Source: Opitutaceae bacterium (GTDB lineage: Bacteria > Verrucomicrobiota > Verrucomicrobiia > Opitutales > Opitutaceae). From it: a stretch of 64,000 bases of DNA. Below the pieces are notes generated by a model. It saw only the letters and a program-made list of their open reading frames with translations, was not told where the DNA came from and searched no databases. A program made the position numbers and the translations under genes. Location of the stretch: assembly GCA_023269585.1 (NCBI GenBank), contig JAHFTC010000001.1, positions 1-64,000 of the forward strand, given 5' to 3'. Of the stretch, positions 9,683-33,918 are shown piece by piece (within the stretch, counting starts at the first letter, position 1; each line of letters starts with the position of its first letter).

Positions 9683-9771
9683 GGCGGCGCTTCAGCCCGC
9701 CCTGTTCGGCCCTGCGCTCGGGTGCGGTTCGCGAATCGCATCTTCCGGGTCGCCCTGAAGGGACGACCTAC
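9679..9771. repeat. REP-pair element (distant copy of the RAYT-linked family)
   Basis: Two hairpins sit back to back. The first, 9682-9704, has AGGGCGG/CCGCCCT arms around GCTTCAGC. The second, 9747-9771, has GGTCG/CGACC-type arms around a CCCTGAAGGG core and ends in CGACCTAC. The second is the reverse complement of the left hairpin in the 30257-30580 array. The element starts with GTAG, whose TAG is the stop codon of the gene at 9173-9682. Confidence 0.75.
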
Positions 9772-9851
9772 GGCCTGAGGGATCGCTTGCGCTTCATTCC
9801 CTTCGTTGCCTTCTGTCGGTCCGTCTTTTCCTCGTGGCTGCACCCGAAACC

Positions 9852-12476
9852 ATGAACCCGAAACCCAAAATCGTCGCCACCGCCGGCACGGCGACGTGCA
9901 GCCACTGCGGCACCGCGTTCACGCCGACGGAGGCGCACGGGGAGTTCTGCAGCCCGGGTTGCGCGGCGGTGCACGCGCAGATCGTGCGCGACGGGCTGGA
10001 GCGTTTCTACGAACTCAAGGATCGCGCGGTGGCGCCGGCGGGCAGCGCGGTCTTCCAGCCGCGCGACTACGGCTGGCTGGCCGAAGCGGTTGCGGCCGCG
10101 GAGGCCGGCGACGGGCGGAAGACCGCCGAGCTCGTGCTCGATGTGCAGGGCATCTCGTGTGTGGGGTGCGTGTGGTTGATCGAGCGGCTGTTCCGGCGCC
10201 GCGACGGGGCGGTGCGCATCGAGATCAATGCGACGCAGGGCCGGCTGTTCTGGCGCTGGGAGCCGGGGCGGTTCGACGCCGTAGGCTTTGCGCGCGAGCT
10301 GCAGGCGTTCGGCTACCTCGTGGGCCCGGCGGGCGAGAAACCCGGCGCGGCGGCGGCGCAGGGTCTGCGGTTGCGGCTCGGGCTGGCGGCGGCGTTTGCG
10401 ATGAACACGATGATCTTCGCGCTGCCGTCGTATCTCGGGTTGGAGCGCTCTTCCGAGTTCTGGCCGGTCTTCGAGGCGTTGCAGGCGGGGTTCGCCACCG
10501 CCGGACTGCTCACCGGTGGGAGCTATTTCGCGAAGCGGGCGTGGGCGGCCCTGCGGCACGGGATCGTGAACCTCGACGTGCCGATCACGCTCGGGTTGCT
10601 GATCGGTTACGGCGGTTCGCTCGTTGGATGGCTCGGCGGGCACGAGCATCTGGTGTACTTCGACTTCGTGGCGGTGTTCAGTTTCCTGATGCTCGTCGGG
10701 CGCTGGACGCAGGAGGCGGCGATCGAGCGCAATCGGCTGCAGCTGCTCTCGCTGTCCCGCGAGCCGGCGGAGGTGGTGGTCGAGGAAAGGGGCAAGGGAC
10801 AAGTGACAAGTGGCAGGTCGGAGGACGGAAAGGACGGAGACCGGATGGCGGGCGTAAAGCCCGCCCCACCATCGGAGGAGGCAGCGGATCGCCCCGCCTC
10901 CGAATCTCCGGTTTCCGGTCTCCGCTCTCCGGTTTCCGCGCTGAAGCGCGGCGCGGTGTTTCGGCTGCGCGCCGGGCAGGTCGTGCCGGTGGCGGCGCGG
11001 TTGCTCGACGGTGCGGCGACGGTCACCACCGAGTGGATCAACGGCGAACCGGAGCCGCGCGAGGTCGCGCCGGGGCAGACGATTCCCGCCGGCGCCACGA
11101 GCGTGAGTCTGCACGAACTCCGGTTGGAGGCGCGGGAGGATTGGCGCGATTCGTCGCTCGCGCGGCTGCTGGAGAGCAGCGGCGCGCAGGGTTTCCGGCA
11201 CGAGGTGGCGGAGACGATCGTGCGCTGGTACCTCGTGGTGATTCTGGTGTTCGCCGCGCTCGGCGGCGCGGGGTGGTGGTGGCTCGGCGGCGACGGCCTG
11301 AAGGCGTTGCACGTGATGATCGCGGTGCTCGTGGCGTCGTGTCCGTGCGGCATCGGCGTGGCGTTTCCGCTGATCGAGGAACTGGCGGTGGCGGCGATGC
11401 GGCGTCACGGCGTGTTCGTGCGCGAGCTGTCGCTGTTCGTACGGTTGCGCGGCGTGAAGAAAGCGATCTTCGACAAGACAGGCACGCTCACGCTCGAGAC
11501 GCCGGTGCTGGCGAATCCCGAGACGCTGAGCGCGCTCGAACCGGTGGCGCGGCAGCGGCTCTGGCAGCTCGTGCAGGACAACCCGCACCCGACCGCGCGC
11601 GCCGTGCAGGAAGCGCTCGCCTGGGAAACCGGAAACCGGAGACCGGAGACCGGAAACTCGGAACGCGGAACGGGGAACTCGGAAACCGGAGACCGGAGAC
11701 CGGACATCGGAGACCGGAAACCGGAATGCCGGAACGCTGAACCCGGAACTCTGAACCCTGAGCCGATCCGCCTCGAAGAGGCGGTCGGGCAGGGGGTGCG
11801 GTTGCGCACCGAGGATGGAGTCTGGACGCTGGGCAGGCCTGGGTTCGCCGCTCCGCACTCCGCAGTCCGCGATCCGCAATCGGGCGACGCCGAGCTGGCC
11901 CACGATGGGCGCGTGCTGGCCCGGTTGCATTTCACGGAATCCGCCCGCAGCGATGCGCGGGCGGAGATCGCGGCGCTGCAGCGCGAGGGGCGCGAGGTGT
12001 TCATTCTCAGCGGCGATCGGCCGGAGAAGGTCGCCGTGCTCGCTGCCGCGCTCGGCGTGCCGGCAGGCCACGCGCTCGGAGGGCTCACGCCGGAGCAGAA
12101 GCGCGACTGGGTCCTCGCCCACGACGCCCGCGACACGCTCATGCTCGGCGACGGCGCCAACGACAGCCTGGCCTTCGACGCCGCCTTCGCGCGCGGCACG
12201 CCGGTGATCCACCGCGGCATGCTCGAACGAAAGTGCGACTTCTACTACCTCGGCCGCGGGCTGCGCGGGGTGCGGCGGCTGTTCGGCGTCGCCGAACTCC
12301 GGCGACGCTCAATCCGCCGGGTGTTCGTCTTCGCGGTGTGCTACAATATCGGCACGGTGTCGTTGGCGCTCGCGGGGTGGGTGAACCCGCTGGTCGCGGC
12401 GGTGGCGATGCCGACGAGCGCGCTGCTCAGCCTCGCCCTTGCGACCGCCGGGATGCGCCGCGCATGGCGGGCCTAG
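9852..12476 (+). CDS. Heavy-metal (copper-type) P-type ATPase, FixI/CopA2-like, with repeat-derived insertions
   Basis: An 874-residue P1B ATPase. It begins with a Cys-rich domain (C16, C19, C33, C37), then an HMA domain with GISC-x2-C (C103, C106). The transport motif is C497-P-C499 (SCPCGIGVAFPL), the phosphorylation site is D541 (DKTGTLT), the N-domain HP is in QDNPHPTAR, and the hinge is GDGANDS. The actuator motif reads NGEPEP where TGEP/TGES is usual. Cys-Pro-Cys suggests Cu(I) export, as for FixI in cytochrome cbb3 assembly. Residues about 312-363, 592-638 and 667-677 are encoded by low-complexity repeat DNA that does not look like P-ATPase sequence. ATG at 9852 is preferred over GTG at 9834. 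Confidence 0.85.
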   Translation: MNPKPKIVATAGTATCSHCGTAFTPTEAHGEFCSPGCAAVHAQIVRDGLERFYELKDRAVAPAGSAVFQPRDYGWLAEAVAAAEAGDGRKTAELVLDVQGISCVGCVWLIERLFRRRDGAVRIEINATQGRLFWRWEPGRFDAVGFARELQAFGYLVGPAGEKPGAAAAQGLRLRLGLAAAFAMNTMIFALPSYLGLERSSEFWPVFEALQAGFATAGLLTGGSYFAKRAWAALRHGIVNLDVPITLGLLIGYGGSLVGWLGGHEHLVYFDFVAVFSFLMLVGRWTQEAAIERNRLQLLSLSREPAEVVVEERGKGQVTSGRSEDGKDGDRMAGVKPAPPSEEAADRPASESPVSGLRSPVSALKRGAVFRLRAGQVVPVAARLLDGAATVTTEWINGEPEPREVAPGQTIPAGATSVSLHELRLEAREDWRDSSLARLLESSGAQGFRHEVAETIVRWYLVVILVFAALGGAGWWWLGGDGLKALHVMIAVLVASCPCGIGVAFPLIEELAVAAMRRHGVFVRELSLFVRLRGVKKAIFDKTGTLTLETPVLANPETLSALEPVARQRLWQLVQDNPHPTARAVQEALAWETGNRRPETGNSERGTGNSETGDRRPDIGDRKPECRNAEPGTLNPEPIRLEEAVGQGVRLRTEDGVWTLGRPGFAAPHSAVRDPQSGDAELAHDGRVLARLHFTESARSDARAEIAALQREGREVFILSGDRPEKVAVLAAALGVPAGHALGGLTPEQKRDWVLAHDARDTLMLGDGANDSLAFDAAFARGTPVIHRGMLERKCDFYYLGRGLRGVRRLFGVAELRRRSIRRVFVFAVCYNIGTVSLALAGWVNPLVAAVAMPTSALLSLALATAGMRRAWRA
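10785..10938. repeat. In-frame repeat insertion 1 in the P-type ATPase
   Basis: About 150 bases between the last pre-actuator segment (SREPAEVVVEE) and the actuator strand (LKRGAVFRLRAGQ) consist of three different repeat words. These are a GACAAGTGACAAGTGG word, a GGCGGGCGTAAAGCCCGCC hairpin, and a TCTCCGGTTTCCGGTCTCCG word. Together they add about 52 residues rich in Gly, Ser, Pro, Glu and Asp while keeping the frame open. Confidence 0.75.
10843..10876. repeat. 34-bp hairpin repeat, copy 1
   Basis: The hairpin core GGCGGGCGTAAAGCCCGCC with flanks matches 33885-33918 base for base over 34 positions. Here it encodes MAGVKPAPPS in the ATPase; the other copy is intergenic. Confidence 0.85.
11624..11763. 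repeat. In-frame repeat insertion 2 in the P-type ATPase
   Basis: About 140 bases built from variants of GGAAACCGGAGACCGG and later GAACCCGGAACTCTGAACCC interrupt the nucleotide-binding domain after EALAWE. The encoded segment is strongly polar (repeats of ETGN, ETGD, RRPE). The first half is the reverse complement in style of the last part of insertion 1. Confidence 0.75.
11849..11882. repeat. In-frame repeat insertion 3 in the P-type ATPase
   Basis: A run of CTCCGCACTCCGCAGTCCGC-type words ends in GATCCGCAATCGG. It encodes about 11 residues (APHSAVRDPQS) inside the nucleotide-binding domain. The complementary word GTGCAGAGTGCGGAATGCGG occurs between ubiB and the phasin gene near 51010-51035. 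Confidence 0.65.
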
Positions 12477-30256: not shown

Positions 30257-30580
30257 GTAGGTCGTCCCTTCAGGGCGACCCGACAGGTGTGGGATTGCTC
30301 CCGGGGCCGATGCGAGGGCTGGGCCGAACGGGTCGTGCTGAAGCAGCGACCTACGGCGGGCCGGCGGAGGTAGGTCGTCCCTTCAGGGCGACCCGGCAGG
30401 TGTGGGATTGCTCCCCGGGCCGATGCGAGCGCGGGGCCGGGCGGGTCGTGCTGAAGCAGCGACCTACGGCGGGCCGGCGGAGGTAGGTCGTCCCTTCAGG
30501 GCGACCCGGCAGGTGTGGGATTGCTCCCGGGGCCGATGCGAGGGCGGGGCCGGGTGGGTCGTGCTAAAGCAGCGACCTAC
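30257..30580. repeat. Tandem array of three REP-pair (BIME-like) units
   Basis: Units at 30257-30354, 30370-30467 and 30483-30580 are each 98 bases with a 15-base spacer, giving a 113-base period. Every unit opens with GTAGGTCG and a hairpin with GGTCG/CGACC arms and a CCCTTCAGGG core. It closes with a second hairpin (TGCTGAAGCA core) ending CGACCTAC, so the unit ends are inverted. Units are about 95 percent identical by eye. The last unit overlaps the stop codon of the RAYT gene. Confidence 0.92.
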
Positions 30581-31170
30581 TTTACCCAGGGGTATTGATC
30601 CCATGTGGTTGCTAAGCCGGCCTTCACTGGGTTCTGGCGGATGTACTCGACGATGCGCGCCTGCTCCGGGTCGTCGCGTACCCAATGATCGAACCACTCA
30701 GCCTGCCAGAACGAACCTGCGCGGTGCAGCGTGAGGTTCAGAGTCCGGGCGGAGCGGCCCTTGAAGTGGGCGAGGGCGACGTGCAGTGGGAACGGCGCAG
30801 GGCTCGTCGGCAGGAGCAACAAGTGTACGTGGTTGGGCATCACGACCCTATGCGGGCAGGCCCAGCCGTGCGTGGCCTCGAGTGCGGTCAGTTCGCCTGT
30901 GAGGCGCTCGCACAGACTCGCTTCGATGAACGGGGCGAAGCCGTCGCCGGAGTCTAGATACTTCTCGCTCGCGCGGAAATAGTGCCGCTGCAACTGGGCG
31001 AATTCGGCCGAACGGGGCGCGACGGCCTGGATGGAACGGTGGATCTCGCGGAGACGTTCGGCCGCCGCGGCCGGAATTGATCCCGCGCACCGGATGGTGA
31101 CGAAGTGCGGGCGGCCCTCGACTTCCCAATGGGGGAGGCGTTTGCGCCAACGTTCCCGGGTGTCCGCCAT
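30577..31170 (-). CDS. REP-associated tyrosine transposase (RAYT, Y1 HUH family)
   Basis: A 197-residue single-strand DNA endonuclease of the TnpA-REP type. It has the HUH motif H114-V-H116 in VVMPNHVHLLLLP, and the RAYT C-terminal signatures GSFWQAEWFDHWVRDD and VEYIRQNPVKAGL, with Y176 the likely catalytic Tyr. REP arrays lie immediately on both sides, as expected for a domesticated element whose substrate is the REP hairpin. ATG at 31170 (MADTRERWRKRLPHW) is chosen; a GTG at 31236 would add 22 residues. The TAG stop is part of the adjacent REP (GTAGGTCG). It lacks the IS200/IS605 mobile ends. Confidence 0.92.
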   Translation of the reverse strand: MADTRERWRKRLPHWEVEGRPHFVTIRCAGSIPAAAAERLREIHRSIQAVAPRSAEFAQLQRHYFRASEKYLDSGDGFAPFIEASLCERLTGELTALEATHGWACPHRVVMPNHVHLLLLPTSPAPFPLHVALAHFKGRSARTLNLTLHRAGSFWQAEWFDHWVRDDPEQARIVEYIRQNPVKAGLATTWDQYPWVK

Positions 31171-31236
31171 GGGGCGAAGGGTGGGTGTATCCGGAGTTTC
31201 GGCAAGCCGGGAAGCGGATCGCGCCGTAGTGCGCAC

Positions 31237-31416
31237 GTAGGTCGTCCCTTCAGGGCGACCCGGCGGGTGTGGGATTGCTCCCGGGCCGATGCGAGGGCGG
31301 GGCCGGGCGGGTCGTGCTGAAGCAGCGACCTACGTGCGGGCCGGCAGGGATGGGACAGCTCTCCGGGCTGGTGCGAGGGCGGAGCCGAACGGGGTCGTGC
31401 TGAAGCAGCGACCTAC
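31237..31416. repeat. REP-pair units on the other side of the RAYT gene
   Basis: A complete unit at 31237-31333 (97 bases) is followed by a partial one at about 31335-31416, which has lost the left hairpin but keeps the right one (TGCTGAAGCA core, end CGACCTAC). Orientation is the same as in the 30257-30580 array, so the RAYT gene sits inside one interrupted array. The last repeat ends two bases from the znuB stop codon. Confidence 0.9.
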
Positions 31417-32952: not shown

Positions 32953-33783
32953 TTATCCGTTGTTCGCCGCCGGGTAGAACTGGGCGAGGGAGGCGGGGGC
33001 GAGGACTTCGGCGACGGGGCCGGCAGCGAGCAGGCGGGTGTCCAGGAGGAGGGCGTGCGAGAAGACGCGGCGGGCGAGCGGCAGGTCGTGGAGGACGGCG
33101 ACGACGGTGCGGTGGAGCTGTTCCCAGGATTTGAGCACGGCGGCGAGTTCGGCGGCGCTGGGGGCGTCGAGGCCGGCGAAGGGTTCGTCCAAGAGGAAGA
33201 TGTCGGCGCCTTGGGCGAGGGCGCGGGCGAGGAAGACGCGTTGTTGCTGGCCGCCGGAGAGCGCGCGGATCTGGCGGTCCTGCAGGTCGGTGAGCTTCAT
33301 CTCGGCGAGGGCGCGATCGACGAGCGCGTGGTCGGCGGGGCGGAAGCGGCGGAAGGCGCCGAGCGCGGGGTAGCGGCCCTGCTCGACGACGCCGCGCACG
33401 GTGATGGGGAAGTCCCAGTCGACGTCGACGCGCTGCGGGAGGTAGGCGAGGCGGGGCAGGGCGTGTTGCGGGTGGGAGTCGCCGATGCGGATCTCGCCGC
33501 GCGTGAGCGGCATCCAGCCGAGGATGGCGCGCAGGAGGGTACTCTTGCCGGCGCCGTTGGGGCCGAGGATGGCGGTGAGGCTGCCGCAGTGGATCTGCGC
33601 AGTGACGCTGTCCACGGCGAGGCGGCGGCCGTAGGCGACGGTGACGTCCTGCAGGCGGATGATGTCGTGCTGGTGCAGGGAAAGGCCAGAGGCGAGAGGC
33701 GAGAGGCGAGAGGCGGAAAGGGACTGCCCCCGGCTCGTGGGGGCGCCGGGCGGGAGAGGACGGAATTCGGAAGGCGGACTCAC
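32953..33783 (-). CDS. znuC: Zinc/metal ABC transporter ATP-binding protein (ZnuC-like)
   Basis: A 276-residue ABC ATPase with Walker A (GPNGAGKST), Q-loop (YLPQRVDVDWDFPI), signature LSGGQQQRVFLARALAQ, Walker B (IFLLDEPFAGLD) and H-loop (VAVLHDLP). The ABC domain begins at about residue 40 (IIRLQDVTVAYGRR). The preceding residues (SRGQSLSASRLSPLASGLS) are encoded by a tandem GCGAGAG repeat and do not resemble a transporter N-terminus. The only visible start is GTG at 33783, without a clear ribosome site; a non-standard start nearer the ABC domain is possible. Confidence 0.88.
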   Translation of the reverse strand: MSPPSEFRPLPPGAPTSRGQSLSASRLSPLASGLSLHQHDIIRLQDVTVAYGRRLAVDSVTAQIHCGSLTAILGPNGAGKSTLLRAILGWMPLTRGEIRIGDSHPQHALPRLAYLPQRVDVDWDFPITVRGVVEQGRYPALGAFRRFRPADHALVDRALAEMKLTDLQDRQIRALSGGQQQRVFLARALAQGADIFLLDEPFAGLDAPSAAELAAVLKSWEQLHRTVVAVLHDLPLARRVFSHALLLDTRLLAAGPVAEVLAPASLAQFYPAANNG

Positions 33784-33884: not shown

Positions 33885-33918
33885 GGATGGCGGGCGTAAA
33901 GCCCGCCCCACCATCGGA
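33885..33918. repeat. 34-bp hairpin repeat, copy 2
   Basis: Identical over 34 bases to 10843-10876, with core GGCGGGCGTAAAGCCCGCC. This copy is intergenic. Confidence 0.85.

Follow-up and report, generated by a model that had tools for sequence, protein, structure and literature searches.

The repeat-word DNA inside the P1B-type ATPase gene of this Opitutaceae bacterium probably belongs to a genome-wide population of dispersed, degenerate heptad repeats, joined at one site by a REP palindrome, which survive in frame as near-neutral disordered loops. The gene lies in the window, that is, the whole stretch of 64,000 nucleotides analysed (positions 1 to 64,000 of contig JAHFTC010000001.1), and its features are collected in Table 1. 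A first-pass annotation had treated the insertions as a matter of this single gene. That scope is too narrow, as the phenomenon covers many genes.

Table 1. The ATPase gene, its repeat-bearing sites, and further genes of the same genome with in-frame heptad arrays
Feature	Position in window	Strand	Evidence
ORF of P1B-type (CopA/CcoI-FixI-like) metal-transporting ATPase, 880 aa; GTG start at 9834, stop at 12476	9834..12476	+	Pfam, TIGR01525, Foldseek
Insert 1: two heptad arrays, the second in inverted sense, with a REP palindrome between them	10784..10942	+	repeats, homologue alignment, pLDDT
REP palindrome GGATGGCGGGCGTAAAGCCCGCCCCACCATCGG, with its GTGG tag on the opposite strand	10843..10875	+	copy search, G010 comparison
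Insert 2: GGARACC words followed by GGAACNC/TGAACCC words, about 20 degenerate heptads in all	11624..11764	+	repeats, homologue alignment, pLDDT
Site 3: loop of normal length encoded by four heptads of CCGCANT type	11851..11881	+	repeats, homologue alignment
In-frame arrays beyond the ATPase: PrmA, uracil-DNA glycosylase, DEAD-box helicase, two-domain glycosyltransferase, sulfatase, AMP-binding enzyme (two arrays), SAM methyltransferase

Is the gene an intact ATPase? The reading frame is open throughout, and its product matches the Pfam families E1-E2_ATPase, Hydrolase and ATPase-cat_bd. Its match to TIGR01525 (heavy-metal ATPase) reaches an E value of 1e-64, yet stays under the curated cut-off of the family. 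A Foldseek search with the structure model returned Cu and Zn P1B ATPases. All the motifs named by the first-pass annotation are there, namely CPC at residues 503-505, DKTGT at 547-551, HP at 585-586 and GDGAND (GDGxND) at 772-777, and together with the fold they place the protein in the P1B type. The TGE motif of the P-type actuator domain is absent, NGE standing at residues 403-405 (11040-11048 of the window). This NGE is common to the ATPase family consensus WINGEAEP, and it does not exclude the P1B family because all the other motifs are in place. The genus was sampled with three genomes, all drafts, and the ATPase was present in only two of them, the window genome and G010. These two species are about 0.6 synonymous substitutions per site apart. 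Their ATPases share 82% of amino acids, and the core gives dN 0.082 and dS 0.605 over 758 codons. The resulting dN/dS of 0.14, with every named motif kept, argues that the core is under purifying selection and agrees with the earlier view that the gene is no pseudogene.

What, then, interrupts this conserved core? Repeat-word DNA is seen at each of the three places first reported, and the period-7 test given below speaks against chance. As insertions, only two of the three stand. In the alignment of 24 homologues, the loop at site 1 has 67 residues in the window, 56 in G010 and a median of 28 in the rest, an excess of about 39 over the family; the loop at site 2 has 57, 61 and 21, an excess of about 36. 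The loop at site 3 has 20 residues in both species and a median of 24 in the rest, so that it is of ordinary length and brings no net insertion. The net gain from sites 1 and 2 is about 75 residues, not the 110 or so that had been claimed. Insert 1, whose repeat-word DNA (10784-10829 and 10905-10942) encloses the REP core at 10847-10865, stands at the start of the actuator domain, in the loop that joins model strands 314-317 and 362-365, and insert 2 follows the HP helix in the nucleotide-binding domain. Modelling had been proposed as a check, and AlphaFold2 rendered both as low-confidence loops, with pLDDT below 50 at residues 320-360 and 601-644; domain placement in this model is only moderately sure, given a mean pLDDT of 73.6 and a pTM of 0.61. 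The dN/dS between the window and G010 is 0.84 for insert 1 and 0.89 for insert 2 (43 and 50 codons whose alignment is uncertain), and 0.28 for site 3 over only 14 codons. These rates and the predicted disorder indicate that inserts 1 and 2 are near-neutral disordered loops within a selected gene.

The alignment with homologues, another check that had been proposed, gave a divided answer. Most family homologues in it are without the segments, but G010, the sole congener with the ATPase, has inserts at these sites too, their repeats diverged or replaced: GGTGGRC words open its insert 2 in place of the GGARACC of the window, and its insert 1 has partly different heptad words and no REP. Judged from these sequences, the repeats appear to turn over at permissive sites, with no protein sequence being conserved. 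A few other family members have long, unrelated loops without heptads at the same sites, which shows that sites 1 and 2 tolerate length. We also considered the inserts as a trait of the whole ATPase family and rejected it, since most homologues are without them and the other long loops are heptad-free.

How common are such arrays in the genome? In 398 kb, 16 arrays of period 7 were found at a score of at least 16, while order-1 Markov shuffles gave 0. Lags that are not multiples of 7 gave 0-2 arrays, and 14 and 21 follow as multiples. As period 7 alone is clearly above background, the repeat words are degenerate heptanucleotide tandem repeats, and the supposed mixed set of repeats in the ATPase reduces to 7-bp units plus one REP palindrome. 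The word families in the genome are GGARACC and its relatives, GGTRGAC, CCGCANT, CCTCTCG and others. The ATPase inserts have about 70 matches over the genome. GGTRGAC triplets have 67 overlapping matches there, compared with 0 for reversed-pattern controls and 0-12 in other sampled family members (almost none in most). The earlier statement that the words recur in nearby non-coding gaps is right for the REP, which returns at 33889, and for other heptad arrays of the window (near 33680, 34693, 51002 and 56887), but GGARACC arrays recur only beyond the window, on the same contig at 105002 (inside prmA) and on other contigs. In a sample of 686 kb, whose contigs were partly picked for insert matches so that counts give no fair density, 24 of 53 arrays lie wholly within the 11.5% judged non-coding by a simple hexamer script for gene calls. 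This is a 3.9-fold enrichment (p ~7e-10), and thus arrays are depleted in genes but present there. G010 likewise has 15 arrays at period 7 and 0-2 at other periods that are not multiples; its dominant words, CCGGCAA and CCGTCCA (L247-L266), are unlike those of the window genome, so congeneric species differ in their sets of heptad words. Pairing of inverted arrays as hairpins was tried as an explanation and dropped: an exact 10-mer in common with an inverted partner no more than 400 nt away was seen for only 2 of the 53 arrays, and with a direct partner for 15.

Within the 686 kb, eight conserved genes, the ATPase included, carry heptad arrays in frame. The clearest case is the glycosyltransferase, in which 30 codons of mixed heptads fill a site that is empty in both G056 and G010. 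The flanks are 86% identical to those of G056, and no target duplication is evident at this one clean filled/empty pair. Across three species, the sulfatase loop ranges from short through middling to about 70 residues. In general, the orthologues in G010 and G056 have empty sites or other lengths and words, and all are in frame except PrmA of G010. In the array-bearing genes tested, dN/dS is 0.12-0.35 in the flanks; in the insert regions of genes other than the ATPase it is 0.16-0.87. In G010 PrmA (L240, G010:C98, about position 2250 of a 4-kb contig), the stretch of the heptad site and motif I are missing and the gene is out of frame, which may mean either that the site can be damaging or that the deletion is a misassembly of a small contig. 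GyrB/ParE on C112, the ABC protein at 32956-33783 and several others were not counted as intragenic, their arrays lying upstream of or near the likely start.

Why might such arrays be kept in conserved genes? We propose that arrays arise in, or enter, surface loops of genes, and that an array would survive there if it has no stop on the sense strand and adds a total length that leaves the frame intact. Since 7 and 3 are coprime, each frame of such an array yields one and the same cycle of seven residues. For example, a GGAAACC array encodes a GNRKPET cycle, and a GFRFPVS cycle when read from the opposite strand. One half of the possible heptamers are stop-free on both strands, and so are common words such as GGAAACC, GGAGACC, GGTGGAC and CCGCAAT; of the six-frame readings of intergenic arrays, 82% are open, whereas controls give 71-74%. 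With this openness and the frame-independent cycle, a gene mainly needs the length of the insert to be divisible by 3. The coded peptide would then be a disordered linker, presumably harmless to the enzyme and drifting almost neutrally, while the core would stay under purifying selection, and the array might later change through slippage, substitution and frame-keeping indels. Slippage accounts for growth, but slippage alone does not explain why loci, and even phyla, have words in common; for these to disperse, copying, template switching or some other generator would be required. The spread may therefore combine slippage with copying or template switching among arrays, and it would proceed without a dedicated transposase.

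The REP in insert 1 raises the question of whether a transposase took part. Its minus-strand form is GTGGGGCGGGCTTTACGCCCGCC, and it is a short multi-copy palindrome with a GTAG-type end tag, as REPs are. By tag and description it resembles the GTGG-tagged kind of GTAG-20 in Opitutus terrae (PMC3733652). We consider it unlikely that heptads and REP form a composite mobile element which a RAYT-type transposase carries into genes. The REP has dozens of copies in the 686 kb, some of them adjoining heptads, it is missing from insert 1 of G010, the genome has 11 Y1_Tnp matches, and intragenic REPs are known in O. terrae (PMC3733652), all of which would suit such an element. However, no REP is evident among the heptads of insert 2, of site 3 or of those inserts in other genes that were inspected, the arrays vary in word, length and ends, and the absence of an evident target duplication at the glycosyltransferase site also tells against it. 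Moreover, the RAYT of the window is flanked by GTAG-tagged REP-type repeats, GTAGGTCGTCCCTTCAGGGCGACC, of another family than the REP of insert 1. The RAYT-like Y1 transposase ORF (219 aa) lies at 30577-31236 on the minus strand, with 113-bp repeats at 30257-30595 and 31237-31349. One palindrome of the kind flanking it stands just upstream of the ATPase, at 9745-9772.

The arrays are also found in other lineages. Among 388 genomes of the phylum, 18 have GGARACY triplets, in a patchy distribution, and a 28-base GGARACY pattern occurs in many phyla. At 116 loci with this pattern there were 96 further arrays at period 7, 20 at period 8 and at most 11 at the other non-multiples tested. In-frame arrays were found in MurD (L092:2150-3583) and HypF (L138:2827-5421) of Desulfobacterales and in PriA of an alphaproteobacterium (L113:2130-4334), with Pfam domains around the arrays or on both sides of them. 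A speculative reading, to which we give a low probability, is that a sequence-specific generator, working by an enzyme or by template copying in scattered lineages of many phyla, writes the arrays at new sites and repeatedly makes new disordered segments in housekeeping genes, in which case the GGARACY words shared across phyla would reflect the generator and not common descent.

Heptanucleotide repeats in coding sequence are known to act as switches. In neuO of E. coli K1, tandem AAGACTC at the 5' end makes the gene phase variable, and it is on, with the product translated in full, if the repeat count is divisible by 3 (PMC13001214). The inserts here likewise have a 7-base unit within coding sequence, and G010 prmA is out of frame at its site, as gain or loss of a unit would make it if the arrays turned genes on and off. 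Such a switch is nonetheless very improbable, as the arrays stand in mid-gene loops of housekeeping enzymes, nearly all the orthologues compared are in frame, and the units seem too degenerate for frequent slippage; in insert 2, exact slippable units of the neuO type were not found, no more than two identical units ever following each other. That the loops were selected for a function, such as regulation or interaction, is hardly to be believed: inserts are kept at both ATPase sites in two species as far apart as these, but their sequences are partly swapped for other words at near-neutral rates, and unrelated long loops occupy the same sites in other family members.

Degenerate heptads surviving in frame as near-neutral loops may also be compared with other known repeats. 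Heptanucleotide repeats, some of them intragenic, have been described as GGGAATC in Xanthomonas and GGGGAYT in Nostoc, where 68% are intergenic (PMC4692102), and as the STRR of cyanobacteria; in Geobacter metallireducens, copies of GGACCGG lie inside genes, and one gene may hold two or more (PMC2700814). The present arrays are like these in being degenerate 7-bp units above chance at many loci, mostly intergenic and in part intragenic. Unlike them, several word families coexist here, switch within one array and can adjoin a REP, and in-frame gain in conserved enzymes is seen against empty homologues and a congener. The first-pass annotation had likened the insertions to Rickettsia palindromic elements, palindromic families of about 150 bp which stand in frame in unrelated genes and whose peptide is tolerated (PMC10969869). 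The likeness is good for the in-frame entry of mainly intergenic repeats into unrelated genes, eight of them here, but it fails in structure: instead of a palindrome of about 100-150 bp with a consensus, there are 7-bp arrays of varied word and length, enriched between genes and non-palindromic except for one REP. Among GTAG families, intragenic REPs are most numerous in O. terrae, and neutral loops have been proposed for them (PMC3733652). A GTGG-tagged palindrome inside a gene is found here too, but it is a small part of one insert, the remainder being heptads. The tandem repeats of Borgs also make disordered segments of proteins, as is predicted here, but inside ORFs all their units have lengths that are multiples of 3, and most are perfect (PMC9879509), while the present arrays have a unit of 7 and stay in frame by their total length alone. 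Thus the class of repeat is already known, and its spread into many housekeeping genes is unusually clear in this genome.

One consequence concerns annotation: heptads in translation give peptides such as RRPETGDRKPETG, SGFRFPVSG and VHRPPST, which should not be taken for domains. More generally, the filled and empty sites together with the substitution rates indicate that tandem repeats of a non-triplet unit can feed disordered loops into conserved enzymes with the frame intact; one genome has at least eight such genes, and MurD, HypF and PriA are examples from elsewhere. This makes the arrays a tractable system for two questions, namely why repeats of 7 bp are over-represented in bacteria and how the loops of proteins grow.
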